Assembly: GCF_029962835.1 (NCBI RefSeq)
Contig: NC_080582.1
Span: 18,794,032 to 18,858,031 of the forward strand
Source of the DNA: Magnolia sinica
Taxonomy: Eukaryota; Streptophyta; Magnoliopsida; Magnoliales; Magnoliaceae
Length of the DNA: 64,000 nucleotides
Direction of reading: 5' to 3'
Positions 19,783 through 58,828 of the stretch are shown piece after piece. A program made the translations under genes and the position numbers. Each line of letters starts with the position of its first letter. Within the stretch, counting starts at the first letter, position 1. The notes beneath the pieces were generated by a model. That model worked only from the letters and a program-made list of their open reading frames with translations, was not told where the DNA came from and ran no database searches.

Positions 19783-20535
19783 AGGACCATAATTTAATAT
19801 CCAAAGACTTGATTGGCTCATCATGTAAGACTCTATTGGGTGGGCCACACATGATTATCGGTTTAGACCGTTGGATTATTCAGATTCAGCAATTCAGTGG
19901 GCTTCACTATAATTGTGATTATTGTAAATAGGTTTACAACAAGACAAGACGCTTGAACCATGATTCCTATACATAGTTATTAAACCGGATATGGAAACCT
20001 ACGATATAAAGACCCTATAGAAGAGGAGTGCGATGGGTAAGCTTCTCTAGCCTTCTTTTCTATAAATAGATGGTTTTGTCCCACACCAACATAAGAAGAA
20101 GATTTTTTTTAAAAAAAAAAAAAAACCTAATCACATTTAAAGATTCTCTTAAAGGTATGGGGTGCGGAAGACCTAGCATCCCTCGGCTACAACGCGGCAT
20201 TAGGAATGTCTTCCCGATTAGATATGCATTTGTGAGTGTTATGTTGAATCTCCATTATCGATACATAGATGATCCGTTGATCCGGAAATACAGGTTTAAC
20301 ACATCATGCCTAGGTTGAGTCACAAACCTGAGTTGGAAGTCGACCAATCATATCGAACCAGATCAGTAATCTACCGAATCCAAGTCAACTTGGATGAGTC
20401 CTATCATACTCGTTCAAGCCTTAAAACCATTGATACGACCCACCTGAAGACTAGACTGGTTTAATTTGGAAACAACATGGACGCCCACCAGATGAACGGC
20501 CAGATCTCATGTGTCACTTCAGCGTGTGAAGGCAG

Positions 20536-21616
20536 TGTTGCATTTTTGTGGTTTAAAAAATAATTAAAAAATGAAAATTCAAAATTTTCAAAATTTCGGG
20601 ATTTTCCCGCCAAATTACCTTTTTGAATTTTTTAAATTAAAAAGTATGGTGTGTGTGCTTTGTCCCACATCGGAAATACAGAGAAAAGTTTTGTGGTTTA
20701 TATGAGATGTTGAAAAGGGTATTCTTACTTGGAGCTTTTTTAGAAGAGATGAAACACCGCACTGGAACACACGCATGCACCCATGCGCGCGCGTGCTCGC
20801 GCTCGGGCACGGGCACGAGCGAGGGCGAGGGCGTGGGCAGTGTGGCTGTAGTGGCGCTAGATGGCGCACTTTGCACTTCGCACGTGCGCATCGTGTCGCA
20901 GAGTGGTCGCTCCCTCGCAACCTTACGCGAACTTGGTGCGAACTCAGTGCGACCTCGGTACGATGGGTCTGGTCAAAGCCTTAGGGCAATGTGGATCTGA
21001 AATGTTGGAAATGAGCTTGGGTTTTATAAGTGACTGAGAACGGTCGGATCTTAAATCCGAAACATCCAGCTGTTTCTTAAACGGATAGCTACCTTAAAAG
21101 CCACAACGGTCCAAAAACGGACGGGCCAGGATGATCCAACGGTCAGATCTACAGATCTAATGACCAGAAACGTCTGAGATTAATGGACAATGGCCAGAAA
21201 CATTTTTCAAATGTTCTGGACCATTGAATACCACACAGCAATGGATCTAAACCTGAGGCCTATATAAACTGGACCATTCCAGTCCGATTTCATCATCTCA
21301 ACACACCATCTCCCCATCAAATCAGATACAGTCAATAGCTTCATATTAGAATACTGTTGTCATCTCCATAGTCTAAGTCTGCCAGAATAAATCGACTGCG
21401 TTAAAATTGTTCCATAGTGGACCTATCGTGATTGCTGCACGCTGGATCCAGATAAGGCTTGTCTTATCCTGGAAGCAATTCGCCTGTAACCCATCAGCAG
21501 TTGATAAGGGGGCGAATCACGCTTTAAGGACAGCGTATTTTATACGTGATTCAGCCTAGTGATAATTTTATTTTATTATTTATTTTTCGGTGTATCCAAA
21601 AGTAGTTTCTCAAACA
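20536..21616 (+). repeat. 5' LTR of the Copia element
   Basis: Begins TGTTGC and ends AAACA. It has a TATA box (TATATAAACT) at 21261. A GC-rich region of GGGCAC and GAGGGC words (about 20765-20840) differs most between the two LTRs. Confidence 0.93.
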
Positions 21617-21632
21617 ATCTTAAAGCGTGATT
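21515..21632 (+). promoter_or_regulatory. Possible self-priming pair in place of a tRNA primer site
   Basis: AATCACGCTTTAAG in the LTR (21515-21528) is the exact reverse complement of CTTAAAGCGTGATT (21619-21632), which starts two bases after the LTR where the primer site should be. The usual Copia primer site (TGGTATCAGAG) is absent there. Self-priming is known for Tf1-type elements; its use here is inference. Confidence 0.6.
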
Positions 21633-24600
21633 ATGGACACCGAAAGTGTTGCATCAATCAAACTGATGAACCAGGATCTGATCCGATTGGACCGATTCGA
21701 TGGTTCAAATTTTACTAGATGGCAGGAAAAGCTGAAATTCCTGCTGACCGCGCTGAAGATCTTCTACATCTTGGACCCGACTCTCCAACCTCTGCCTGAA
21801 GCAAAGGACACTGACACTCCAGAACAGATCACTGCTAGGATCAAGCGACAAGAAGATGAACTGCTGTGTCGTGGCCACATCCTCAATGCTCTCTCTGATC
21901 GATTGTATAATTTGTACACGGGGACCACATCAGCGAAAGAAATTTAGAGCGCACTGGAATACAAATACAAGGCTGAAGAGGAAGGTACACAGAAATTTAT
22001 AATTGCCAGGTATTTCGACTTTACGATGGTAGACCATCTACCGTTACTTGCCCAAATCCAAGAACTGCAGCTTATTGTAAATAAAATAAAAGCCATAAAA
22101 ATCGATCTTCCTGAATCCTTTCAAGTCAGAGCTATAATCGCAAAGTTGCCTCTGAGCTGGAAAGACTACAGGAAGAAACTACTGCATAAATCTGAAGAGT
22201 TCACCCTAGAACAAATCCAGAAGCATCTTCATATTGAAGAAGAATCTCGTAACCGAGACAAAAAGGATGACGCTAATGGTGCATCCTCATCCAAGGTGAA
22301 CGTAGTAGAAAAGACATCCCAAAATAATACCTATGAGAAAGTTGATTCCCTTAAACCCAACAAAGATCAAAGAAAATTCAAGAAAATCCAAAAGAAGAAA
22401 AACGGCAAACCCAAGGGAGCTTGCTATGTCTGCGGCAAGACCAAGCATTTCGCCTAAGTCTGTAGGGACCGAAAAAAGCCTAAGAAAGAGGCTAATGCAG
22501 TAGACGATGAAATCGTAGCCATGATCACAAAAGTAAACCTAGTTCAAGAGAAAATTCCTGGTTGGTGGTATGATACAGGTGCCACAGTCCATGTATGCAA
22601 TGATCGATCTGCTTTCAAAACCTATAAAAATGAGACCAATGGTCAAGAGGTTCAAATGGAAAATGAAGGACGATCGAAAGTTGTAGGCAAAGGAACCGTA
22701 GAATTAATCTTTACATCTGGAAAGAAGGTAATCCTGACCAACGTACTACATATCCTAGACATAAGGAGGAATCTTGTCTCAGGGGATCTCTTAAACAAGC
22801 CTGGTATTAGGGTTGTGTTTGAATCAGGCAAGCTGATCTTGTCTGAGAATGGAAACTTTGTGGGTAAGGGATACGCTTGTAATGGGATGATCAAACTCTC
22901 TTTAAATGAAAAGAATTCTTCTGCTTACATGATTGAGTCTATAACGTTATGGCATGGTAGACTAGCCCATATTGGCTACAGTACCATAAAACTCATGGCT
23001 AAGAATGGCCTAATATCATACAATGATAGTGACAAAGATAAATGTGAAGTATGCATACGGTCTAAAATAATAAAGAAACCATTCACTAGCGTTGAGAGAT
23101 CGTCTCAAATATTAGACCTAGTGCATACTGACATATGTGAACTAAATGGTATTTTTACCCGTGGAGGTAAAAGGTACTTTATAACATTTATAGATGATTG
23201 TTCAAGATATGTATATATATATCTGTTAAAATCGAAAGATGAAGCATTTAATGCATTCAAAATCTATAAAGTTGAAGTAGAAAATCAATTAGATAAAAAT
23301 ATTAAAATCCTTCGTAGTGATCGAGGAGGAGAATATTTCTCTAATGAATTTTCTAAATATTGTAAAGAACACGACATAATACATCAGTGCACAGCACCTT
23401 ATACACCATAACAAAATGGTGTAGCAGAGAGAAAAAATAGGACGTTAGTAGAAATAGTCAACTCAATGCTAATACAAGCACAGTTGCCATTAAACCTATG
23501 GGGAGAAGCGTTGTTAGCTGCATGTCATGTTTTAAACCAAATTCCTTCTAAGAAAACCAAGACCTCTCCATACAAAATATGGAAAGGAAGAAAACCAAAC
23601 ATAGGGTATCTTAGAGTGTGAGGGTGTCTTGCATATTGCAAAACTCGAGAAACTAAAAGAACTAAATTAGGACCAAGAGTTATCAAGTGCATCCTTGTAG
23701 GATATGCACAACATAGTAAGGCCTATAGACTTCTAGACTTAGACTCTAATATAATCATAGAGTCTTGAGATGTAGAGTTCTTTGAGAATTCTGTATTCAC
23801 GGAGGAAAAGAATGCTGAGATTCAATCTCCTAATGAAAATATAAAAGAAACACAAATAGAAGAGAAAACTCCTAGTGAACCTCGTAGGAGTCAAAGAGCA
23901 AGAGTAGAAAAGAGTCTTGATCCTGATCAAATAGACTCTCAACAACTCTCTTTTCATCTAGTTGAGGATGATAGAGAGAAGGTGATTAGGAAAATACATA
24001 TGGTTTTGACTATAGAAGATGAACCTAAAACTTTTAGTGAAGCTATGTCTTCAAGAGACTCCGCTTTTTGGAAAGAAGCCATTAATGATTAAATGGATTT
24101 TATAATATCTAACCAAACATGGAAATTGGTAGATCTACCTCCAAGTTCTAAACCAATAGGTTGTAAGTGGGTATTTAAGAAAAAATATCACACAGATGGT
24201 ACAATTTAAACTTTTAAAGCAAGATTAGTTATTAAGGGTTTTCGACAGAAAGAATGAATTGATTATTTTGACACTTATTCACCAGTAGCTCGAATAACAT
24301 CGATTAGGATCTTATTCGCTCTTGCTTCCATACATCATCTTCATATCCATCAAATGGACGTGAAGACAGCATTCCTGAATGGTGATCTCGATGAGGAGGT
24401 TTACATGGAGCAACCAGAAGGGTTTGTTCTACCAGGAAATGAAAGAAAAGTATGTAGACTTGTTAAGTCTTTGTATGGATTAAAACAAGCACCAAAACAG
24501 TGGCATGATAAATTTGATTCTAAAGTTCTTTCTTATGGTTTTGAACACAATACTGCTGATAAATGCATATATTCAAAAGTATGTAATGATTATGTTATAA

Positions 24601-26119
24601 TCATATGCTTGTATGTAGATGATATGTTAATAATCAGTAATAAAATGGAAGGGGTAACTGAAACCAAAAAGTTTCTCTCTTTAGTTTTCAAAATGAAAGA
24701 TCTTGGACAAGTGGATACCATATTAGGTATCAAAGTTAAAAAACATAGTGGAGATTTTGCATTATGACAGTCTCATTATATTGAGAAAATAATAAATAAG
24801 TTTAATCACTTGAAAATTAAAGAGACAAAGACCCCGTTTGATCCAAGTATCAAGTTAAAAAAAAACAGTGGAAGAGCAGTTGCACAACTAGAGTATGCTA
24901 GTACTATAGGTAGTCTTATGTATGCAATGCAATGCACAAGACCGAATATAGCATACGCTGTGAGTAAACTAAGTAGGTTTACAAGTAATCCAAGTGTTAA
25001 ACACTGGAAAGCAATTAGTAGAGTTCTAGGTTATCTTAAAGAAACCAAAGAACTAGAGTTATTTTACTCAAAATTTCCAGCAATATTGGAAGGATATACC
25101 GATGCAAGTTAGATATCGAGTGCAGGGAACAACAAGTCCATTACAGGGTGGATATTCACCCTAGGAGGTGCAGCTGTATCTTGGGGATATAAGAAACAAA
25201 CTTGCATAACACACTCAACTATGGAATCTGAGTTCATAGCTTTAGCTGCTACAGGCAAAGAGGCTGAGTGGTTAAGGGATCTTCTTTTAGAAATCTCATT
25301 TTATGCGAAGCTTATACCGGCTGTTTCACTTCATTGTGATAGTGAAGCTACTCTAGCAAGAGCCTATAGTGGTACCTATAATGGGAAGTCCAGGCACATA
25401 AGTTTGCGACATGACTATGTAAGACAATTGATTCAAGATGGAATCATTGCGATCTCATATATAAAATCAAGTAATAACTTGGCTGATCCTTTTACTAAAC
25501 CTCTAACGAGAGAAGTAGTAAGGACAACATCTAGAGGGATGGGGTTGAAACTCTTTACTTAAAGTTTTACCAGTGAAAGAAACCCAACTCTAAATTAGAA
25601 AATCTCTAAATATTGGGTTTAATGGGTAACAACAATTCACTGATAAGTGAAAAGTTTCAGCACTAAATAAATTGATAACCTCATCCAGGATGATAGTGCT
25701 GTCCGTTATAAAGAGGGATGAGTATTGAACTCTTAATGAAATCCAGTCAAACAAGACAAGTGTTTTAAACGGAAACACTAGAAGAATTTCACCTATGTGA
25801 ACGTAGAAGTGGTGCCGCTTCTCATGAGACTTAGAGTTATTTCGGGATCGTTCATGAAACAGGATAAGCACATGGCCATTAAAAGTACTAAGCGAGATTA
25901 TAAAGGAACACCTAACGCATAAGTTATTATGTGTGTAGTATTTTCGGTTATATCATAAAGGAATAACTAGTTCAATGCTACGGCAACCAGAAATTTCGAA
26001 ATAACTTTAAAATGCTTACACTAAGGAAAGATTCAAATCACAAGATATCTTTCTTTATGCATAATAACTGTTATTATTTTGGCAGAATTTTTTCATTATT
26101 TTAAAAACCAGTGGGGGAT

Positions 26120-27242
26120 TGTTGCTTTTTTGTGGTTTAAAAAATAATTAAAAAATAAAAATTCAAAATTTTCAAAATTTCGAGATTTTCCCGCCAAATT
26201 ACCTTTTTGAATTTTTTAAATTAAAAAGTGCGGTGTGTGTGCTTTATCCCATATCGGAAATACAGAGAAAAGTTTTGTGGTTTATATGAGATGTTGAAAA
26301 GGGTATTCTTACTTGGAGCTTTTTTGGAAGAGATGAAACACGGGTTGCGTGTTCCGAAGCACTGGAACACACGCACGCACGCACACGCACGCGCACTCGC
26401 GCACGGGCTCGGGCACGGGCACGGGCACGGGCGAGGGCGAGGGCGAAGGCGTGGGCAGTGTGGCTGTAGTGGCGCTAGATGACGCACTTTACACTTCGCA
26501 CGTGCGCATCGTGTCGTATAGTGGTCGCGTGGTCGCTCCCTCGCGACCTTACACGAACTTGGTGCGACCTCGGTACGATCGCGGTGCAATGGGTCTGGTC
26601 AGAGCCTTAAGGCGGTGTAGATCTAAAATGTTGGAAATGAGCCTGGGTTTTATAGGTGACTGAGAACGGTCGGATCTTAAATCCGAAACGTCCAGCCGTT
26701 TCTTAAACGGATAGCTACCTTAAAAGCCACAACGGTCCGAAAACGGATGGGCTAGGATGATCCAACGGTCAGATCTAAAGATCTAATGACCAGAAACATC
26801 TGAGATTAATGGACAACGGCCAGAAACATTTTTCAAACGTTCTGGACCATTGAATACCACACAGCAACGGGTCTAAACCTGAGGCCTATATAAACTGGAC
26901 CATTCCAGTCCGATTTCATCATCTCAACACACCATCTCCCCATCAAATCAGATACAGTCCATAGCTTCATATTAGAATATTGTTGTCATCTTCATAGTCT
27001 AAATCTGTCAGAATAAATCGACTGCGTTAAAATTGTTCCATAGTGGACCTATCGTGATTGCTGCACGCTGGATCCAGATAAGGCTTATCTTATCCTGGAA
27101 GCAATTCGCCTGTAACTCATCAGCAGTTGATAAGGGGGCGAATCACGCTTTAAGGACAGCGTATTTTATACGTGATTCAGCCTAGTGATAATTTTATTTT
27201 ATTATTTATTTTTCGGTGTATCCAAAAGTAGTTTCTCTAACA
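26120..27242 (+). repeat. 3' LTR of the Copia element
   Basis: Pairs with 20536-21616 over its whole length. The purine tract GTGGGGGAT lies just before it and GGCAG follows it. It also carries AATCACGCTTTAAG (27141-27154). Confidence 0.93.
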
Positions 27243-27476
27243 GGCAGATTACCTAGAAATTCATATTTTAAAACCAATGTGCAATTTGCTACAATCTGGA
27301 AAGAGCCTTACTGATCTAGATCTTGGTGGGCCATGATAGACTCTTCCAAGGCTCATTATAGGCGTACGGACCAAGCCCAAAGCAGGGCCGCCAAGACTGT
27401 TGGGACATCAATTTAAGAGAAAATGAAATGCCGTCAAGATGGGAGAGTGACGAGAAGCACTCACCACAAGAACTAA

Positions 27477-33853: not shown

Positions 33854-36800
33854 TGTTGAGGATCACACGGAAGCAAACCTGAATTTAAACTAATGAGATG
33901 AAATAAAGTGAAAGAAAAAACTACGGCACAAAGAGACATGCAATCCACCATGAAAGCAATATTACAAAAGATGGGTGGACTTACCAATCCGAACAAGCCC
34001 AAAAACTTCCGTGAAAAACCTAGCAATACTCTTGAACCCTTAGAAACATCTTAGAGAATTTTAATCTTACCCTGATTCCAATTACACTCAGTATATATAC
34101 TACCATTGTTGAAATAATAAGCAAATTGTGCACTTACGCAGTTCTACGCGTGCCTTCAATGGACCTTCGATGGCATCAATAACCATCGAGGACCATTCGA
34201 TCACATTGAAGTCACCATTGATGTCATCGAGTAACAACTCCAAAACTATCTAGCAACCAATTAAGATTTTTTTTAATTTTCTTGATGGGATTGAGCATCT
34301 GTCAATGACATCGATAGCCAATCGATGGAATCGAGTGGTCTGTCGATGACACCAACAGACTCTTTTACAGATAGATTTAAGACATTGACAATAATCTTTA
34401 CCATGTCTTCAATCTTCACAATCCATTATTCATTTGCTGTCACCATCTTTAATTGTCTTCCATCATAACTTCATTGTTGTTTCTCATGTACACTCCGTCT
34501 TCATTAAGCATTTACCAAGCTCAAAAAAGTTGTATAGAAAATCAACGCTTTTAAGAAATTGTTTACGTATATATAATGTTCACATATATGAAAATCAACA
34601 CCTTTAAAAATAGGAATCAAGCTACAATCAGAAAGTGCCTTCATACCCGCTCACTCATGTGGTACAGACGAGCATGCCACAAACGTGTCAATGTGGACTC
34701 CACTACGTATGTTACAGCTCTACTCGATATGATATTCATGATCAACTTGTAAAGATTACTATTCCACTCTCCTTTCATCACTACAAGAGCCCCTTTAGAA
34801 ACTTTGAGGACATGATTAAAACCAGTAAACTTGCACACAAGTGCCTCCAGTGCCCCAAGAGAGATAAGATTTTTCCTAAGGTAAGGAATGTGTCTCACAT
34901 CCGTTAGGATACACTCCACCCCATTGAACATCCTAATGCGCACTAAACTGATACCAATCACCTCACAGGCAATGTAATTACCCATTAAAAAAATGTTCAC
35001 CTTTTTATTCGTTGTAACTGGTGAACCAAACTGTATGAAAAGATATGTGGCATGAGGCTCCCGAATTTTCAGGCTTTTCTCCATTCTGAGTTTTAGGATT
35101 CTAATAATCCTTTTTTCATGTGTCATATCATCCCAAAACTCCTGCATTGTAACTTGCCATTCCCTTTTGATTTAGACTATGATTGAGAATTGTCATTTTC
35201 TTATTTAGAATTCATTCCCCTGACAACCAACACATTTGTGAAGGTAACCTCGTCATTGTCTTTCTTTCTCAACTACTTCTCATAAAAGATTGAGATAACA
35301 ATTTCAACATCGATGGTATCCCACCATGGATCATCGAGTTCATTCTACTATGTGAAGGTAATCTCACCACTATCTACTAAATTCTCGAAAGATGATAAAA
35401 GCGAGTTCAAGAGAATCAAAGCTTAATCTTCCTCTTCAATCTTAATATCTGTATTCGTCAATTATAAAGCAATTCAATAAAATTGCTCATCTATTTATTG
35501 ATATTTGATCCCTTTATCATCTAGATTGTATAATTGTTTCTTAAGATACAAGCAACTGCCCAATAATTTCTTCATGTACAAACTGTCAAGTTTCATCCAT
35601 ACTCCTGTGGCAGTCTTTTGATCCAGGACATTATAAAGCATATTGTCCGCTAGACACAATTGGATTGAGCTTGTAGCCCTCTCATTGAGTTCATTCTACT
35701 CTTCATCATAAATGTAGGACGCTTCTGTTTGTCATTATTCTCTCACACAGTGTGCGGGTGTGCCAGAATTGGATTTGCTGCTCCAATTCAAACCGAACAA
35801 CAATGACTCGAGTGCCAAGATAAGTAGACATGTATGTATAGCCGATATCTGAGGAGATCGGTTGCCTATTCAGCCACTCATTCAATGTGTAAATTGAATT
35901 AGGCGATATCTAAATGGTAGGGTTCATCCTGTGATGATGGGTTACTCCTTTGTTTTCCGTACGAAAGGACTTTTCAATGCAAATTAAATGAAACGAGAAA
36001 TAAATCCTTACAATCGGTCATTGTGAACTACTGAAGAACAACTCTTTGATAATTGAACGAAGTCCAGTGTGCGAGCGTAAACTCCAATTACAACTAAAGA
36101 TTATATTATTGATACAGTTATGTTAAAGAATGTAAATCAGCAAACTAAAAAATAAAAGATTACACTAAGTAATGTAATTTACTCAATAGGAAAAGTAAAA
36201 GATTATACTATGGAATGTAAATTGACTGATAAAAGGATAATTGAAATATAAGTTTGGTTTGTTTAGGTTTGGTATGAGACAAATTTTTCTTATTGATTTG
36301 CTTTGCTCCAGCTGTTTTGGATCCTTCTCACGTTTTGACAATTATTATAATTGTTCTCTATTATTTGGCTTCTAGATGCTTGCTACGTTTTGCCTTCTTC
36401 GTCTCTTCTTTTACCACTTGTCATGAGACCATCTAAGCTTGGTTGTTTCCCTTCTCGATCATTTAGTGACGCTCAACGGCCACTAATACATTATAATCCC
36501 ACTTTTTTGATTCACTGTACATATCCGCAAAAAAAAATAATTAAAAATAAATAAATAAATAAATCCTCTAGTACACTATGTATATCAGTACAGATCACAC
36601 GTATTTCACTCTGATGACCGACATAGGATACGACCGAAACGGGTTCAAACAACTTCACCTTGCCAATGAAAGCATGTTGTAATCCTTTTTAAACTAAAAG
36701 GCCTCTCATCTTCATCTTCCATAGTTCAAAATTATTTCTACTGATGAACTTTCTGTTTTATACTTCACGTAGAACCTTTCGTTGACATGTTTCATTTTAG

Positions 36801-37410
36801 AACTTGAAACCCCAATGTTATTTCTGATACTACTTTTTGGGGATCGCGTGGAAACAAACCCAATTTCAAACTAACAAGATGAAATCAAATGAAAGCAACA
36901 CATGTAGACAACACACAAGTTTTACATAGAAAAACCCTCATAGAGAAAAACCACAACACAAAGTGACAATTAATCCATTATGAAAGTAATATTATAAGAG
37001 ATGGATGGACTTACCGATCTAAATAACCCCAAAAACCTACGTAAAAACCCAAGAAATGCTCTTAAACCCTAAGGAATGTCCTAGAGAACACTAACCTTAC
37101 CTTAATCTCGATTATACCCAGTATATATACTACCACAACTGAAATAGAAAATAAATCTCATGCTTATGAAATTCTATGATTGCCTTCAATGGACCTTTAA
37201 TGGCATCGACAACCATCGAGGACTAGTCAATAATATTGAAGCCACCTTCGATGCTATCGAGAAGCAACTCCAAAACTGTCCAGCAAGCAACTATATATTT
37301 TTTTCTCGATGGGATCAAGCATCTGTCGATGGCATCAACGGCTGCTCGATGAAATTGAGTGGTCTGTCAATGACATCAATGGACTCTGTTACAAGATTTT
37401 CGAAGAGCAG
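33854..37410 (-). mobile_element. Copia-type LTR element relic, reduced and broken
   Basis: Two related terminal repeats (about 33854-34400 and 36834-37410) enclose a minus-strand interior. It has a gag-like part (about 35200-35750) and a protease to pre-integrase part (about 34640-35150). No reverse transcriptase was recognised. A degenerate tRNA-Met-type primer site lies beside the upper LTR (near 36825). It is old, with LTRs visibly diverged, has many breaks, and carries an unexplained insert at about 35750-36560. Confidence 0.75.
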
Positions 37411-38188: not shown

Positions 38189-38394
38189 TGTAAAAGAAAG
38201 AAAAGAATATTTGCCTTTTGAATGAATTTCTATTAAATCAAGAGACGTATCTTTATACAAGAAATTTCCTACAATCATGTTGAGCTATTCTAGGTAGTGT
38301 AAGCATAATAGCAACTAAATAACTAATAAAATATTTTTATAACTAATACAATATTTTGTCAATGAATGGCTAGATATCATCGACCTTCTCAACA
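38189..38394 (-). repeat. LTR of the old Copia relic (3' side of the element)
   Basis: A 206-bp repeat matching 43450-43665. It abuts the MITE remnant on its left. Confidence 0.85.
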
Positions 38395-39482
38395 CTCCCC
38401 CTCAAGTTAGAGAGTGAATGTCAAGAACTCCCAACTTGCACATCATAATTGAGAAAGCTTCCTTTCCCAATGGCTTGGTGAACACATCCACAAGCTAATT
38501 TGTTGAAGCAACATGTTTGGTTACAATTGAGCCATCTTGTATTTTGTCACAAATAAAATGACAATCAATCTCTATATGTCTGGTTCTTTCATGGAAAATG
38601 GGATTAGCTGTTATATGTAAGGCGGCTATCTTATCACAATATAACAATGCTGGCTTCGGATGCAATATTCTCAAATCTGTCAATAATGAGCGCAGCCAAG
38701 ATAATTCACAGCATGTACTTGTCATGGCTCTATATTCGGCTTCTACTGAAGAGAGATAAGAGAAGATCCCAGAAAAACATAGTAACCCGTAGTGAATCTA
38801 CGAGATATTGGACAATTAGCCCAATTCGAATCAGAAAAAGCTCGCAAAGATAAATCATTCTGAGAAGGGAAAAACAAACTTCGTCCTAAAATGCTTTTTA
38901 AATAACGCAACACACACAAGGCGGCTTCCATATGTGGTTTGCATGGTGCATGCATGAATCTGCTTAACACATGGACTGAATAGGTGATATCTGACCAAGT
39001 AATAGTCAAATAAATTAGGCGTCTAACAAGTCACCTATACTAAGATGGATTTTTAAGCAATTTTCATGAATCCAAGAGCTTTATGTTTTACTCCATGGGA
39101 AAGTTCACCGGTTTAGCACCCAAAAATCTACCATCTTTTAGAATTTTCAAAGTATATTTTCGTCACGAGATGGAAATACCTTTCTTCGACCGAGAAACTT
39201 TGATGCCCAGAAAATACTTTAAATCACCCAAATCTTTAATCTGAAAATGACTGTGCAGAAATTGCTTTAAAGCTAATATGGCATTGATATCATTACTCGT
39301 AATAAGAATGTCATCAACATATATCAATAAAGCTATAAAAGACTTGCCTTTCCAACATGTGAATAACAAGTAATTTGCTTTGGATTGAATAAATCCAGCG
39401 GCTTGTATAGCTATAGAGAACTTGGCAAACCATTTTTGCGGAGCTTGCTTTAAGCCATATAACGACTTGTGGAGGCGACACA

Positions 39483-40169
39483 AGGGGCTGTTTGATTTTT
39501 AATTTCTAAATACGCAGAATTACCTGATTAGTACTTACTACAGCATGTTTGAAAGTCGCCAAGATTTTCCAAAATTGGTGGATACAAATGTTTTTATTAC
39601 TAATTTAAATATGTGGGCCCCACCATGATATATATGAGTTATCCACACCATCCATCCTTTAAAAAAAAACATTTTAAGGCATGAGCCCAAAAATGAGGAA
39701 AATCAAAAGCTCAAGGGGACCACACCTTAGGAAATAAGGATCATTAAAACATCATTGGTTGAAAGTTATTTTCTCCCTAGGGCCCACAATGATGTTTATT
39801 TGTCATCCAACCCGATAATAAGGTCACACAGTCATGGATAAAGTGGAAACAAAAATATCAATTTGATCCAAAACTTCAGGGTCTTCAAGAAGCTTTCAAT
39901 GGTAGGAGTTCAATTCCCATTTTTTCCAATAGTGTGGTCCACTTGATCTTTGGATCTACCTCTTTTTTTGGATCTTGCCCTAAAATGAGTTGGCTAAAGG
40001 GATGGACGGTGTGGATAGTATACAAACATCAAGGTGGGCTCCACAATTTAACTTTTATCTGCTCCAGTGACGTGAAGAGTGCTTATAAATGAAAGTTGAC
40101 GGTCAAATCACCTTGGAAATCCAACCGGAAATACAGAGGAAAATAATTATTATCCAATTACCTAGAATT
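39483..40169. mobile_element. Foldback element inserted in the Copia relic
   Basis: Family arms are clear: TGGGCCCCACCATGATATAT and CACACCATCCATCC on the left; GGATGGACGGTGTGGATAGT and CATCAAGGTGGGCTCCAC on the right. It opens AGGGGCTGTTTGATTTTTAA. A 21-bp stretch (39462-39482) is repeated exactly at 40170-40190 on its other side, so the insertion borders are exact. Confidence 0.85.
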
Positions 40170-43100
40170 ACGACTTGTGGAGGCGACACACTAGATTCTC
40201 CCCCTGTCGCCGAAGACCGGGAGGTGGAGACATAAATTTCTTCATGGAGATCACCGTGAAGAAAAGTATTGTTGACATCAAGTTGGTGAAGAGACCAATT
40301 CTAGGCAGCTGCTAAAGCCAATAAACAACGAACGGTAATCATTTTAGCAGTGGGAGAAAAAGTGTCATGATAATTTATGCCTTCTAGTTGTGTGTAATCT
40401 TTCGCAACCAAACGAGCTTTGAAACGCTCAATAGTGCCATCCGAGTGCCTTTTGATTTTATAAACCCAATGACAACCAATAGGCTTCTTACCAGGAGGAA
40501 GAGAAGTGAGGGACCAAGTGTGCTTAGCTTCTAAAGCGCACAATTCAGATTGCATTGCTTCTTGCCAATGGGAATGAGAAGTTGCTTTGGTATAAGATGT
40601 AGGCTCAATATCTTGACTGATGGCAGCAGTAAATGAGTAATGCTGTGGTGAGTAACGATGATAAGAGACAAAATTGCAAAGGGGATATCATGTACCTTTT
40701 TGTGGACCTGATGACAAAGGCGGCAAATGGTTGGGAGACATCACTTAGTTGCAAACATAATCACGTAAAGCCGTAAGAGGGTGATGAAGTCAGTGAGAAT
40801 GGTGTAAAATGGGTTCGGAAGGAGGACTAGCAGGTGATGGCTGAGGAGAAACTAGATTTGGTAGTGAGGGTTGGTGGACGGGAGAAACTGGTTCCGGTGG
40901 TGAGGGTTGTTGGGCTGGTGAGGAAGGATCGGATATAGAAAGAGGAATTAGAGAGGCTAAATCTAAGGAAGTGGATGGAATGGACTCATGAGGAAAAATA
41001 GTTTCATGAAAAACAACATCACCACTAGTAAACATTTGATGGGTTGCAAAGTCGTAGAGCTTGTAAGCTTTCTGACCAACTAGATAGCCAAGAAAAATAC
41101 AACGTTTGGTTCAATGAGCGAATTTGTGGGGGGCGTGCACATCAGTAGCATATGCAAGACACCTAAAAACTCGAAGATGGGAATAAGAAGGAAGCTTGCC
41201 ATAAAGTCGTTCAAAAGGAGTTTGGCAAGAAACGAGTGGTGTGGGCAAACGATTAATTATATGAACAGCAGTAGAAACACATTCCGCCCAAAAATGTAAA
41301 GGAAGGTGGGCTTGAAAACGAAAAGCTCGAGCTGACTCAAGAATATGGCGATGCTTGCGCTCTACAACCCTATTTTGTTGAGGGGTATAAACACAAGAAT
41401 GTTGATAAGTGGTCCCTTTTTGTTTTAAAAAATCCCGCATAGAGAAGAATTCTCCACCATTATCAACCCGAATGTTGGCTATAGAAACATGGAATTGTGT
41501 TTGGACAAATGAGAAAAAATTGACTAGCAAATGTTGTGTTTCACTTTTATGATGCATAAAAAATACCCATGTGAATGTAGAATAATTATCCACAATAGTT
41601 AAAAAATATTTTGCACCAGAAAGAGAGATAGTTTTATAGGGGCCCCAAATGTCACAATAAATTAATTCAAAAAGTCTAACAGACGAAATTGAACTAGTAG
41701 AAAACAGAAGTCGAGTTTGTTTTGCAAGTGCACAAACATCACAAGCATTATTAGACTGGAAAGGGAAATGTAACAAATGTTTTGCCATAAAATCTAATCT
41801 AGAGGAAGACAAACGCCCCAATCGGCAATACCACAAAGCGGTGGAGGTGACCTAAGAACTGGGTGAATGGCAAGAAGTGGTTGCTGCGGATAAAGTTTGA
41901 GGCTTTAGCTTCTCTGATGCTAACGCAACCAAGTAATAACGTCCGTCTCGTTGTTCACCCAAACCAATCGTCGTCCTCGTCATCAAGTCCTGCAAAATAC
42001 ACCAATGAGGGAAGAAAGTTACTAAACAATTGAAATCTCTGGTGACTCGACTCACAAACATTAAATCCACCTTAAAAGATGGCACACCAAGCACATTTTT
42101 TTATATAACAGCTGAATTCAAAGGTAAATTCCCAATAGATGTAATCAGAACCTCTTCTCCACTTGGCATAGCAACTGGTGGCAAAAAGGTGTTCTTAATG
42201 CTGTTGACGAGCAAAGTTGAAGATGAAGCAATGTGATTTGTTGCACCACTATCGATAATTAATTAATGGAGGCGCAACAATGATTGTAACAAACCTGAAG
42301 AAGTACCAGTAGCATTAGCTTTAGGATTGATGGATTGTGTTGTCCCTTTACCCTGCATGATAGATAAGATTTGTTGGATTTGCAAATCAGAGAGCCCATT
42401 TGTTACCAACGGCACTTCCTGCATTATTGGACCCTCCTTGACATTGTCGATTGAAGATTAATGGCTATTGTTGCGCTTAAAATGAGTGCTTCCTCGATTG
42501 GACTTGTTTGATGCATATTTAGGGTGTTCTAGTGGATACCCATTCAGCTTCCAGCATGTTTCTCGCACATGATGGTCATGGTCACAATAAGAGCAATGCA
42601 AAGATTTTCAATTAGATGAGTTGGAACGAGAAGAACTTTGTCCATGTCGAACAGCCAAAGCCACCGATTCAACCCTTCGGATAGACATGGCTGAGTTCTC
42701 CGTTGTCTCACGTGCAACACCCAGGCTTCGCTGCTTCTCTTCTTGTACAATGGAAGAGTAAGCCTTGGCAACATCAGCTAGTGAATTCATCAATAGAGAT
42801 TGTACTATAGAACTCATTTAAGTCCCATGAGAAATTGTATCAATTCGCGTCTCTTATGGTCCGCCCCACAAGAGTAAGCGGTGTCATTATAGGATCGTAT
42901 TTCATCCCATAATTTTTTTAGCCTTGTGTAATAAGCTGTAACAATCATCTAATCTTGAACAAGACAAGCAATGTCCCTCTCAATCTAAAAAATACGAGGG
43001 GCATTACTTTGAGAAAAACGATCCCGAAGGTCTTCCCATACCTCTTGGGCAGTAGTCGAAAAAATGACGTTGTCTGCAAGATCCTGTGTGAGTGAATTGA

Positions 43101-43449
43101 GAATCCAAGAAAGGATCATATCGTTGCATTTTTTCCACGCAACATAGTCGTCTGGTTTGGCTGTGACAGACGACATTGTGGTGGTCCCGTCTATGAAACC
43201 TAACTTGGATTTGGCGTTCAAGGAAATCGTCATGACTCTACACCATGTCGAATAATTATCCCCTTTGAGGGGTTTGGAAACAAGCACCATTCCTGAATGA
43301 TCGAAATGGTGAAGAAAATATGGATTGACAGTATCAGGCTTACCTCCATTCAAAGGTTGCTAGTGTGCCATGATAATGGAAAACGACGATAAAAGAAAGG
43401 CAAAAAATGAGGACAGAGAGCTAGGGTATCATTCCCTTCTCTAATACCA

Positions 43450-43665
43450 TGTAAAAGAAGGAAAATAATATTTGCCTTTGAATGGATTAATTGAATCAAG
43501 AGACGTAGCTTTATATAAGAAATTTCCTACAATCATGTGGATCTATTCTAGGTAGTCTAAGTATAATAGACAACTAAACAAATATACAATTAATACAATA
43601 TATTTGGCAATGAATAACCGGATATTTTGCCAATGAATGTCCAGATATCATTGACCTTCTCAACA
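43450..43665 (-). repeat. LTR shared by the old Copia relic and a partial tandem copy
   Basis: It serves as the 5' LTR of the element at 38189-43665 and also adjoins the purine tract of the partial copy above it. Confidence 0.85.
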
Positions 43666-44025
43666 CTCCCCCTCAAGTTGGAGAGTGAATGTTAAGAACT
43701 CCCAACTTGCGCATCATTGTTGAGAAAGCTTCCTTTCCTAATGGCTCGGTGAACACATCCTCAAGCTGATTTGTTGAAGCAACATGTTTGGTTACGATTG
43801 AGCCATCTTGTATTTTGCCATGAATAAAATGAAAATCTATCTCTATATGTTTGGTTCTTTCATGGAAAACGGGATTGACTACTATATGTAAGGCGGCTGT
43901 GTTATCACAATATAACAATGCTGGCTTCGCCCTCAGATTGTACTATAGGACTTATTTAAGTCCCATGAGAAATTGTATCAATTCGCGTCTCTTATGGTCC
44001 GCCCCACAAGAGCAAACGCCCCCAC
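43666..44025 (-). mobile_element. Partial second copy of the Copia relic, in tandem
   Basis: Directly beyond the shared LTR are the purine tract and RNase H end of a second copy, plus some gag-related sequence. It is short and broken, with no outer LTR. A tandem of this kind usually comes from unequal recombination between LTRs. Confidence 0.75.
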
Positions 44026-54104: not shown

Positions 54105-57100
54105 TTTTTGTTTTTGTTTTTGTGGGAAAGGTTAAGAATTTTGTTAAGAAAGGCAAAAGAATACAACCACAGAAAAAGAAAACACCAAAACTCCCCCTAA
54201 TCAGGTGCCCATTCCCTTAAAAATGAGAAAACCTTACTAATCACCGTTGGGACTGATCGACACACATTCCTAAAACAATGATCATTTTTCTCCCCCCAAA
54301 TAGTCCATAGGACTGCCAGCACAGTTTTCCTCCACTTGACTTTCTGATTTAATTGGCATTCCATCATGTCAAGGGTCGAATAAGCCTTCCACTGAACTTG
54401 GCATAACCCAGACTATGTTGAAGAAGTTGAGGATACTGACCCACCGGCTTGAGGCAAATGGACACAGGACGAAGAGATGATTCATTGATTTTGCACCATT
54501 CTTACATAGAAGGCAGATGTTTGGGAGGATCATTCCCCTTTTTTGTAAATTGTCAAAAGTGAGACTCTATTTCTCCCCACGAGCCATGCGAAGGCTACAA
54601 CCTTAGGTGGGCTCCATAACTCTAGACATGGCCTGTATGGCTGTAACTGAGAGGAGAGGGGATCCGTCTAGTGAAATTATGCATCAATTTCGCTGAGAAA
54701 GAGTCCGATTTGTCATTTGCTCCAAATCAACGAAATAGGCGAGCATGGAGAGGGGGAAATGCTCTCTAGTCTCTGCAAAAGTTGGACAAATTCCTCTTCC
54801 TCAGTCTCATTCCAAGGGGGAATCCAGACACCGAAGGCACTGAAACAATTTGCAACCAGGTTAGGAAAATTTGACCCCAAAGAATGATCTCCAACCCAAA
54901 TACCATCCAAAAACAGATTCTTTCGCTGCTGCCTAGGGAAAATCTGATCCCTCCCACACCTTGTTCTCCAAAAGAGTTGCCGATTTCCATAAATGAGAAG
55001 CTCTATGCACATAGGAGATTTTGGTCCGCCAGTCGAGGGAAGATATGCCATATTTCCTTTCGATAACTGATCTCTAAAGACTGCTTTCCTCAATGCGAAA
55101 CCTCCAAACCCACTTGCACAAAGGGCTTCATTCATGACCTCAAGGCTTTTAATGCCAGCCCGCCTTCCTTATAAAGCTTACAGACTTATCTCCAATCTAG
55201 CAAATGAAACTTACAATTTGAACCCACACCTTGCCAAAGGAAACTGCTTCTCAGAGAGCATTTTTTATAAGATCACCTTTGGACATTTGAAGAGAGAAAG
55301 GAAATAAAAAGGCAGATTTGATACAACAGCTTTGATGAGCGCATGTCTTCCGCCTAGGGATAAGTGCCTGGCTTTCCACGGAGAGAGTTCTCTTTCCATT
55401 TTCTCAACAACCTCATCCCACAATTGCTTTGGTAGCTTGCCAATACAAAGAGGGAGGCCCAAATAAAAAATTTGGGAAGGAACCAGCCCTACAACCAAAA
55501 GCAGCAGCCATGCTAGAAACCTTCGACTCTGATAAATGAATCCCCAAAATTTCACACTTGCAGATATTAACTTTTGGGCTGGATGCAACCTCAAAGCAAA
55601 CAACTATCTTCTGGAGATTATCGACCATGAAGAGATCTGCCTTGCTAAAAATAAGTGTGTCATCCGTGAACTGAAGGTGGGATACCCGTGAGGCTATATT
55701 TCCCACCCTAACACCTTGGAAAAGACCCCCTTCCTAAGCACTTCCGAGATGACTAAAAATAAGAATGGGGATAGGGGATCCCCCGGCCTTAGACCTTTGT
55801 ATGCATGGAAATATCCAAAAGAAGACCCGTTGATGAGGACCGAAAATCTAGCCGATCAGATGCATTCCTGAATCCAACTTCTCCACTGAGGCCCGCACCC
55901 TTGTCTACCGAGCATGTAATTGAGAAAATTCCAATCCACATGATCGTATGCTTTCTTTAGGGCACGAATCGATGCATTTATGGGCTACCAGCACTCAAAC
56001 TAAAATTTGTGATGCAGGACAATTAACCACTTGCTCTAAAAGCTCGAACTGATAGAGCATGACGAATTAATCCCTTTCTCGCATAGCTCAGGCCCCACAT
56101 CGTATGGGCACTAAAGGACCTCGGCCAAACCCCCCTCGTGGGCCCCAAATCACATGGGTACCGCCTCACACGAGTTACTTGCTTCACACGGGTGGGGCCC
56201 GCCTCACATGGGCCACCCACGCCGAGTGTGCCCCTGCATCCCATAGGCAACCTCACTCGAGCTCGGTGTGAAAATGCCCCCGCATTAATCACCCCCGGTG
56301 AGGAGTCTCGAACACGAGACCTCCCGCTTTGATACCAATTTGATGCAGGACAATTAACCACTTGCTCTAAAAGCTCGAACTGATAGAGCATGACGAATTA
56401 ATCCCTTTCTCGCATAGCTCAGGCCCCACATCGTATGGGCACTAAAGGACCTCGACCAAACCCCCCTCGTGGGCCCCAAATCACATGGGTACCGCCTCAC
56501 ACGAGTTACTTGCTTCACACGGGTGGGGCCCGCCTCACATGGGCCACCCACGCCGAGTGTGCCCCTGCATCCCATAGGCAACCTCACTCGAGCTCGGTGT
56601 GAAAATGCCCCCGCATTAATCACCCCCGGTGAGGAGTCTCGAACACGAGACCTCCCGCTTTGATACCAATTTGATGCAGGACAATTAACCACTTGCTCTA
56701 AAAGCTCGAACTGATAGAGCATGATGAATTAATCCCTTTATCTCATAGCCCAGGCCCCACATCGCATGGGTTAGAACCTCAGCCGAACCCCCCTCGTGGG
56801 CCCCAAATCACATGGGTACCGCCTCACACGGACTGCCCACCCCGAGTGTGCCCCTGCATCTCACAGGCAACCCCACTCGAGCCCGGTGTGAAAATGCCCC
56901 TGTATTAATTTGCCACCATGCAACGAAGGCACTTTGATTGGAGGCATTGACTTTCAGGAGGGCAGCTCAAAATCTTTGCGCGAGGATCTTGGCCAGAATT
57001 TTACAAGGCTGTTAATTAGGCTCATTGGTCTAAAGTTTTTTTTATGTAGGGAGCTCCTTCTATCTTTGGAATAATCGCGCGAAAGGAATGGCCCATGTTT

Positions 57101-57340
57101 ATAGGCAGCTCCTTCTAAAAAACAGTTACCACATTTTTGTCTCCATTAAACTGTACTTATATTAGCCTCTTGCATCTGAAGAAAAACGAGATCAAACAAG
57201 CCTCACTTTTAACGTTGTTAGCGCCAGAAAAAAAATCCTTTTGACTCCTTGCATACATATAGGATTGGGTATTCCTCTCCTCTTAGCAAATACTCTTCCC
57301 AATTGCAATTGGACATTTGAGTACATCTTTCATACTTGTA
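54105..57340 (-). mobile_element. L1-type LINE in kinase intron 1, 5'-truncated, interrupted
   Basis: Minus-strand ORF2 pieces of a plant L1 retroposon. A reverse-transcriptase part with QFTDDTLIFS (FADD-box equivalent) and LGIHLSESKV is at 55265-55706. Further RT sequence (ISLINxL, ILAKILA) lies near 56920-57060. A C-terminal part with NEALCASGFGGFALRK and GIWVGD lies at 54713-55135, and the tail WTIWGEKNDHCFRN near 54280. Stops and frame changes break it, so it is a pseudogene. The 3' end has a CAAAAA-type tail near 54105. An array of a tRNA-like repeat splits it at 56011-56909. The 5' limit is uncertain. Confidence 0.85.
56011..56909 (-). repeat. Tandem array of a 331-bp tRNA-like repeat, 2.7 copies
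   Basis: Copies start at 56011, 56342 and 56673; the period is exactly 331 bp. The first two are almost identical; the third is diverged and shorter. On the minus strand each unit has TTAGAGCAAGTGGTTAATTG (A-box-like), then GGTCTCGTGTTCGAGACTCC (B-box-like), as in tRNA-derived SINEs. LINE sequence resumes on both sides. Confidence 0.88.
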
Positions 57341-57832
57341 ATGCAGGGGCATTTCACACCAGGCTCGAGTGGGGTAGCCCGTGGGATGCGGGGACACTCG
57401 GGGTGAGTGACCCATGTGATTTGGGGCCCACGGGAGAGGTCTCGTGTTCGAAACTCCTCACCGGGGGTGATTAATGCAGGGGCATTTCACACCGGGCTCG
57501 AGTGGGGTAGCCCGTGGGATGTGGGGACACACTCGGGGTGGGTGACTCATGTGATTTGGGGCCCACGGGGGAGGTCTCGTGTTCGAGACTCCTTACCGGG
57601 GGTAATTAATGCAGGGGCATTTCACACTGGGCTCGAGTGGGGTAGCCTGTGGGATGCGGGGACACACTCGGGGTGGGCGGCCCATGTGCTTTGGGGCCCA
57701 CGAGCCCACGAGGGGGGTTGGGCCGAGGTCCTAACCCATGAGATGTGGGGCCTAGGCTATGAGAAAAAGGGATTAATTCGCCATACTTTAATAGTTCGAG
57801 CTTTTAGATCAAGTGGTTAATTGTCCTGCATC
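57341..57832 (+). repeat. Tandem array of the same family, ~133-bp units, opposite orientation
   Basis: ATGCAGGGGCATTTCACACC begins units at 57341, 57474 and 57609. Each has GGTCTCGTGTTCGA except the last, which runs on to TAGATCAAGTGGTTAATTGT and CCTGCATCAA. The units are a shortened form of the 331-bp repeat, lacking its middle. Confidence 0.85.
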
Positions 57833-58828
57833 AACTTGCCTCTATTAGATGCTTATAAATTCAAAATCTATAGGAACTGAATAGAACTTCACATGAATTT
57901 ATAGTTACTTCTTGAAAATTTGAATAGCTTAATCAGTTAGGTCTGTCACATTATCTATTGTGTTTGCAGTTGGAGCTTGCTAAATCGTTACATGTCTCTT
58001 ACCGCTGAATATCCTATGCTGTTGTTAATATTCGTAAGAAGAGAATTGCATTTTTTGTGATACGAAATTTCCTTCTAATTCGTTGTTTCCATGCTTGTTG
58101 GGTTATCCGACGGAATGGAACCATGTGAATTAAGTTCCATGTAAAATGTTCGAAATAATTTGATGGCATGCACCACAGTCCTGTTTAGAGGAATTTCTCT
58201 TGCTACCATCATCTATCAGTTCCACATGCCACAGAAATCATTGTGTTTGGTCACCTTTATCTCATTGGTGATCCATGTTGATATCTGGATGCATTCATCT
58301 TTAACTATGAAGGATCTGTCTTTGAGAAATCACATAACCTGTATTCTTCTGACTTCACTGCCATTTTTTAAAGTTGTGGTGTCTCATCCATACACACATG
58401 GGTTACATTACTGAAATCCAGATCATCTAAAGAATGGGTCCTGTTGTTGGAGTATTTGCCCAAACATTACTATGATTAGTTTTTATCCATCTGATTTTGC
58501 CCATCGAATTTGGACCATTGATGAAGTTATCTTTCGTTTTCCATCTTATGGCCACCAATTATATGTTTTGGATCGTTCTATCAATTCAACTTTCAGAATG
58601 GGCTCTATGATTTGGGCAGCCTGATTAACATACATATATGCCTAGTGTAAGATGGATGAGTTGCCATCATCTAGATTCGTGTATAAATGTGAACCATGCT
58701 CGTCTTATTGTTTGTTGATTTGTTTTGTACATTCACCATGTATACTTCTTTGTGGTATGACAGGAACTTGACATTGTGTGAGTTTTGCAAGATGTTCTCA
58801 CCTTCTGCACATCAAAAGGGACCACAAA

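Follow-up and report, generated by a model that had tools for sequence, protein, structure and literature searches.

A dead Ty1/copia retrotransposon of Magnolia sinica, probably of the TAR lineage, with a primer-binding site complementary to its own LTR

The window analyzed here, a 64,000-nt stretch of the Magnolia sinica genome (NC_080582.1), contains a full-length, old, and dead Ty1/copia element on the plus strand (Table 1). Alignment of its two LTRs gave 1,021 identical positions among 1,081 ungapped columns, with 60 of the 1,081 sites differing and a further 42 columns occupied by gaps. The differences are unevenly spread, with 52 in the 741 aligned sites upstream of position 21277 (43 of them transitions) and 8 in the 340 sites downstream, and CpG-type transitions make up 16 of the 60. 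The gag-pol frame is interrupted by 10 internal stops, so this copy cannot make its own proteins; an eleventh in-frame stop, at 25560, is possibly where the frame ends naturally. When the stop-free pieces of this frame were queried separately against Pfam, they matched Retrotran_gag_2, Pol_BBD, gag_pre-integrs, rve, and RVT_2, in Copia order, with rve and gag_pre-integrs falling in 22458-23411 and RVT_2 in 24258-24767. No Pfam match was obtained for the pieces at 23769-24092, 24768-25112, and 25113-25562; we take the last of these to be RNase H. The integrase lies ahead of the reverse transcriptase (RT) and the RT is of the RVT_2 type, both of which place the element in the Ty1/copia superfamily.

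Table 1. Coordinates of the element and of the observed and predicted features of its leader (positions in the window)
Feature	Position	Strand	Remark
Target-site duplication GGCAG, left copy	20531-20535	.	Same 5 bases recur at 27243-27247
5' LTR, 1,081 bp, TG...CA	20536-21616	+	Aligned to 3' LTR
TATA box TATATAAA	21261-21268	+	Sequence
AATAAA, possible poly(A) signal	21386-21391	+	Only AATAAA in LTR (plus strand)
Alternative U5 hairpin	21514-21552	+	Predicted fold; arms 21514-21521 and 21545-21552
Putative self-primer in LTR, AATCACGCTTTAAG	21515-21528	+	Exact complement of 21619-21632
Possible second helix, U5 arm	21584-21598	+	13 bp with 2-nt bulge, to 21634-21646
Primer-binding site (PBS), self-complementary type	21619-21632	+	2 nt past LTR; sequence
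gag-pol frame	21633-25562	+	10 internal in-frame stops
Possible second helix, downstream arm	21634-21646	+	Overlaps gag ATG (21633-21635) by two bases
Polypurine tract AGTGGGGG	26110-26119	+	With AT ahead of 3' LTR; sequence
3' LTR, 1,123 bp, TG...CA	26120-27242	+	Contains identical primer copy, 27141-27154
Target-site duplication GGCAG, right copy	27243-27247	.	Matches left copy

The 5' LTR, with its terminal CA at 21616, is followed by a 2-nt spacer (AT), a 14-nt site, and then directly by the gag ATG at 21633. The original prediction, made from this DNA alone, held that the 14-nt site is the exact reverse complement of a stretch within the LTR, that this stretch is unchanged in the 3' LTR, and that it lies downstream of the TATA box and so would be present on the transcript. 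Both 14-nt sites were verified in the sequence, and the 3' LTR copy is identical to that in the 5' LTR. The location of the TATA box points to a cap near 21292-21300, which would put the LTR stretch ~220 nt inside the predicted transcript, in agreement with the third claim. When 0 to 2 mismatches are allowed, the only complements of the PBS on the plus strand of the window are the two LTR copies. We note that one part of the PBS, CGTGATT (21626-21632), recurs twice in the U5 part of the LTR (21427-21433 and 21545-21551), and that one of these copies takes part in the alternative hairpin discussed below.

A chance match, or a product of decay, in an old element would be one explanation for this pairing. 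The copy is indeed old and broken, as seen from its LTR differences and internal stops, and exact 14-nt inverted repeats with gaps of 3 to 200 nt are found elsewhere: the whole window gave 221 such rows, 7 of which are not of low complexity, and these 7 represent 5 loci, that is, the primer pair and 4 others. The 14-nt length is thus not unique in the window, and it is the position at the primer site that sets this pair apart. At that position, ~2e-6 exact sites are expected by chance in the 340 nt at 21277-21616 if bases are independent, and 20,000 first-order Markov resamplings of the same segment, matched to the 20 nt directly after the LTR, produced a longest match of 13 nt (once) and never the 14 nt observed. 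A weaker test, based on energy, found that 2 of 3,000 resampled 14-nt sites equaled the pairing energy of the real site against 21290-21616. The earlier claim that such a match is improbable by chance at the primer position is borne out by both tests, and since complements are not produced by decay either, we consider this explanation extremely unlikely. The tRNA-Met primer site, which the original prediction described as missing, is absent in that its core, TGGTATCAGAGC, is not found on either strand of the window and no TGG, the triplet needed for a tRNA 3' end, starts 0 to 6 nt past the LTR. Given that mature tRNAs end in CCA, a whole tRNA could not pair at these offsets through its 3' end. 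The first TGG, at 21634, was considered as a PBS and rejected, being 17 nt inward of the LTR boundary and overlapping the gag start. ARAGORN, run with the bacterial code, found no tRNA gene in the window; an Rfam search of 20400-27400 returned a single sub-threshold match, to SNORD115; and the letters of the PBS, used as a literature query, retrieved papers that are unrelated by title.

The PBS could also bind half of a host tRNA, in the form of an internal fragment, with the LTR match being secondary. Sites for half tRNAs need not start with TGG, and primers of this kind are known from the plant Copia elements Bianca (half tRNA-Ile) and Osser and Bryco (half tRNA-Met), which are comparable to the present element as plant Copia primed by something other than a whole tRNA. 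Whereas the PBS of those elements fits its half tRNA, the fit here is poor: the two tRNAs compared agreed at best at 8 and 7 of the 14 positions vs 14 of 14 for the LTR, and we regard a half-tRNA primer as quite unlikely. Alternatively, the paired sites may be mainly an RNA structure near the gag start, with a role in translation control, packaging, or dimerization, and priming may proceed by another, unseen route. The PBS sits directly against the gag start, the possible second helix would reach into this codon, and a conserved hairpin occupies the same place in the fungal GalEa Copia elements (PMC5445492). Nonetheless, the 2-nt offset of the site is exactly the usual one for a PBS, no other primer site is visible there, and a mainly structural role strikes us as very unlikely. 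The likeness to GalEa is that of Copia elements that lack a tRNA PBS and have self-complementarity at the same place (PMC5445492). The GalEa Conserved Hairpin Site is palindromic, 9 bp long, and has its complement 12 to 41 bp downstream, such that the pair is wholly downstream of the LTR, in which the authors found no complement (PMC5445492). The Magnolia site differs in being 14 nt long and non-palindromic in its first 9 nt, and in having its complement 90 nt upstream, within the LTR.

Self-priming, in which the RNA of the element itself provides the primer, is the reading we prefer. The original prediction knew of no described plant Copia case, a remark superseded by Neumann et al. (2019), who predicted that elements of the TAR lineage of plant Ty1/copia, Houba and Osr-1 included, are self-primed (PMC6317226); in the published pattern of lineages, the plant Ty1/copia group with self-priming is TAR (PMC6317226). 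The published criterion for a self-primer is at least 10 bp of complementarity to the 5' LTR, starting 0 to 5 bp downstream of the LTR (PMC6317226). The complementarity found here is 14 bp long and starts at offset 2. TAR elements are also defined as being without a PBS for a tRNA 3' end, and the absence of TGG at offsets 0 to 6 agrees with this on the premise that tRNAs end in CCA. Compared with TAR (Houba, Osr-1; Fourf in GyDB) by published description and not by TAR sequences, the element is alike in being Copia, in having no TGG site, and in its LTR-complementary region starting 0 to 5 bp past the LTR, and it shows no difference in the features compared; it is probably a member of this lineage. 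Self-priming is supported by the position of the site, the exact 14-nt match, the lack of a TGG site, and the agreement with the published criterion, and it appears to be the best reading of what is preserved in one dead copy, from which the support is partial. We find it highly likely that the locus is a dead plant Ty1/copia copy, with TAR as its probable lineage, and that the active elements from which it derives were self-primed with their own RNA. Experimental proof of self-priming in plant Copia was not found in the literature searched, which covered few subscription papers. The idea of self-priming is sound, and the mechanism in plant Copia is an already published prediction and not new; the copy at 20536-27242 is a clear new example of it with exact coordinates.

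Self-priming of this element would start with the pairing of 21515-21528 with the PBS in the transcript, a pairing potential that we computed. Cleavage just 3' of position 21528, probably by the element's own RNase H as in Tf1, would then give a cut primer end for the RT to extend into the LTR. Because the primer is probably internal and not at the cap, a cut in cis would leave only 21529-21618 as a template for the first DNA, and the first strand transfer would require that the poly(A) site lie downstream of the primer (R extending beyond 21529) or that the primer act in trans on another copy of the RNA. The AATAAA of the LTR lies upstream of the primer and, if used, would favor trans priming. 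The internal primer position therefore raises a specific question, namely, how the first strand transfer works.

The Tf1/sushi elements are comparable in their proposed mode of priming. In Tf1, the first 11 nt of the RNA serve as the primer (PMC7175516), which sits within a three-duplex (pretzel) structure (PMC10085805). The likeness consists of a self-complementary PBS just after the LTR and a possible extra duplex beside it. The Tf1/sushi elements are Ty3/gypsy chromoviruses with the integrase last, whereas the present element is Copia, with the integrase ahead of the RT. The primer of Tf1 is at the 5' end of the RNA, in contrast to the putative primer here, which is probably ~220 nt inside a transcript with a cap predicted from the TATA box, and since the primer is probably not at the RNA 5' end, the Tf1 scheme would not be directly transferable. 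Tf1 has two duplexes flanking the PBS, whereas the Magnolia leader has a weakly supported downstream one and no upstream one that we could find.

The predicted folds of the leader, minimum-free-energy structures included, favor pairing of the primer with the PBS, with a mean pair probability of 0.75 to 0.98 in all five PBS-containing stretches tried. A 136-nt stretch is predicted to exceed its dinucleotide shuffles in stability (z = -2.63), with 2 of 200 shuffles doing as well, and permuting the PBS 300 times within this stretch gave a mean of -26.6 (standard deviation, 2.1), compared to -31.5 for the real sequence. Among the points that count against self-priming, the best of these permutations (-34.8) is below the real value and the 411-nt leader is hardly above its shuffles in stability (z = -1.12; 12 of 100 as good). 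The alternative U5 hairpin has a mean pair probability of 0.81 and 0.98 in two PBS-free stretches vs 0.00 to 0.02 in the five with the PBS, which suggests that the 5' part of the primer would be held in this hairpin when the PBS is not present and that the PBS would displace it.

A search for duplexes flanking the PBS, prompted by the Tf1 structure, identified the possible second helix, which would lie beside the PBS and over the gag start codon. Its Watson-Crick run of 9 was as long in 118 and 125 of 20,000 resamplings and in 12 of 150 overlapping gag stretches, while its energy was equaled in 90 and 57 of 3,000 resamplings and, of 117 other coding stretches, in 2, making the predicted helix no more than suggestive. 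A Tf1-type upstream flanking duplex was not found, with 2,792 of 3,000 resamplings pairing as well or better, and the leader contains no ATG between 21295 and 21632. These predictions could be combined into a model in which the leader is an RNA switch, where the 5' part of the primer would leave the U5 hairpin for the PBS and the second helix would bury the gag start, with priming occurring in trans, from one packaged RNA to another, given the internal position of the primer. We think this model unlikely; if it were true, one rearrangement of the leader would both arm reverse transcription and shut off translation.

Relatives were sought with pieces of the element, and none of the collections searched yielded a close one. 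Viral contigs contained no relative when searched with the RT, integrase (INT), gag, and RNase H (RH) pieces and two RT alignments, or with the exact two-arm pattern; phages likewise contained no relative, and no match was found among solved structures. The RT piece found one relative among genome contigs (L001; 60% identity in RT) and, among plasmid records, three other Copia sequences together with a further match, the fourth and only partial, located on a record of 39.8 kb. With the INT piece, 12 plasmid records were retrieved, made up of the same three Copia sequences and nine weak matches, of which several bear an IS481 transposase annotation, and with the gag piece none were retrieved. 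L002 (NZ_CP115302.1), L003 (NZ_CP115454.1), and L004 (NC_015657.1) are small records filed as Streptomyces, Kitasatospora, and "Candidatus Protofrankia" plasmids. All three encode a Copia-type integrase and reverse transcriptase, L002 together with a tRNA-Met PBS, and all resemble retrotransposon DNA of host plants that has found its way into assemblies of bacteria. L001 (NZ_SWBM01000016.1; 4,351 bp), a contig of a Robertmurraya genome with a coverage of 0.3 in its name, carries a plant-type Copia pol and then gag and is probably contamination. As a control, the L002 Copia carries the usual TGGTATCAGAGC, positioned two bases past ...AACA, and, by the same test, no self-complement of at least 6 nt, both on the basis of an inferred LTR end. 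L001, in which the best match to the tRNA-Met core has 3 mismatches, has no readable PBS, nor do L003 and L004, such that one of the four sequences is usable as a control.

Other repeats are present in the window. At 33916-37399, two repeats with 76% identity, separated by 3 kb, enclose a Copia integrase-region fragment; nothing readable as a PBS was seen when this old pair was used for comparison. Fragments of Copia pol, on the minus strand and with the RNase H end duplicated, occupy 38189-43929, and a cluster of 331-bp tandem repeats lies at 56010-57838.
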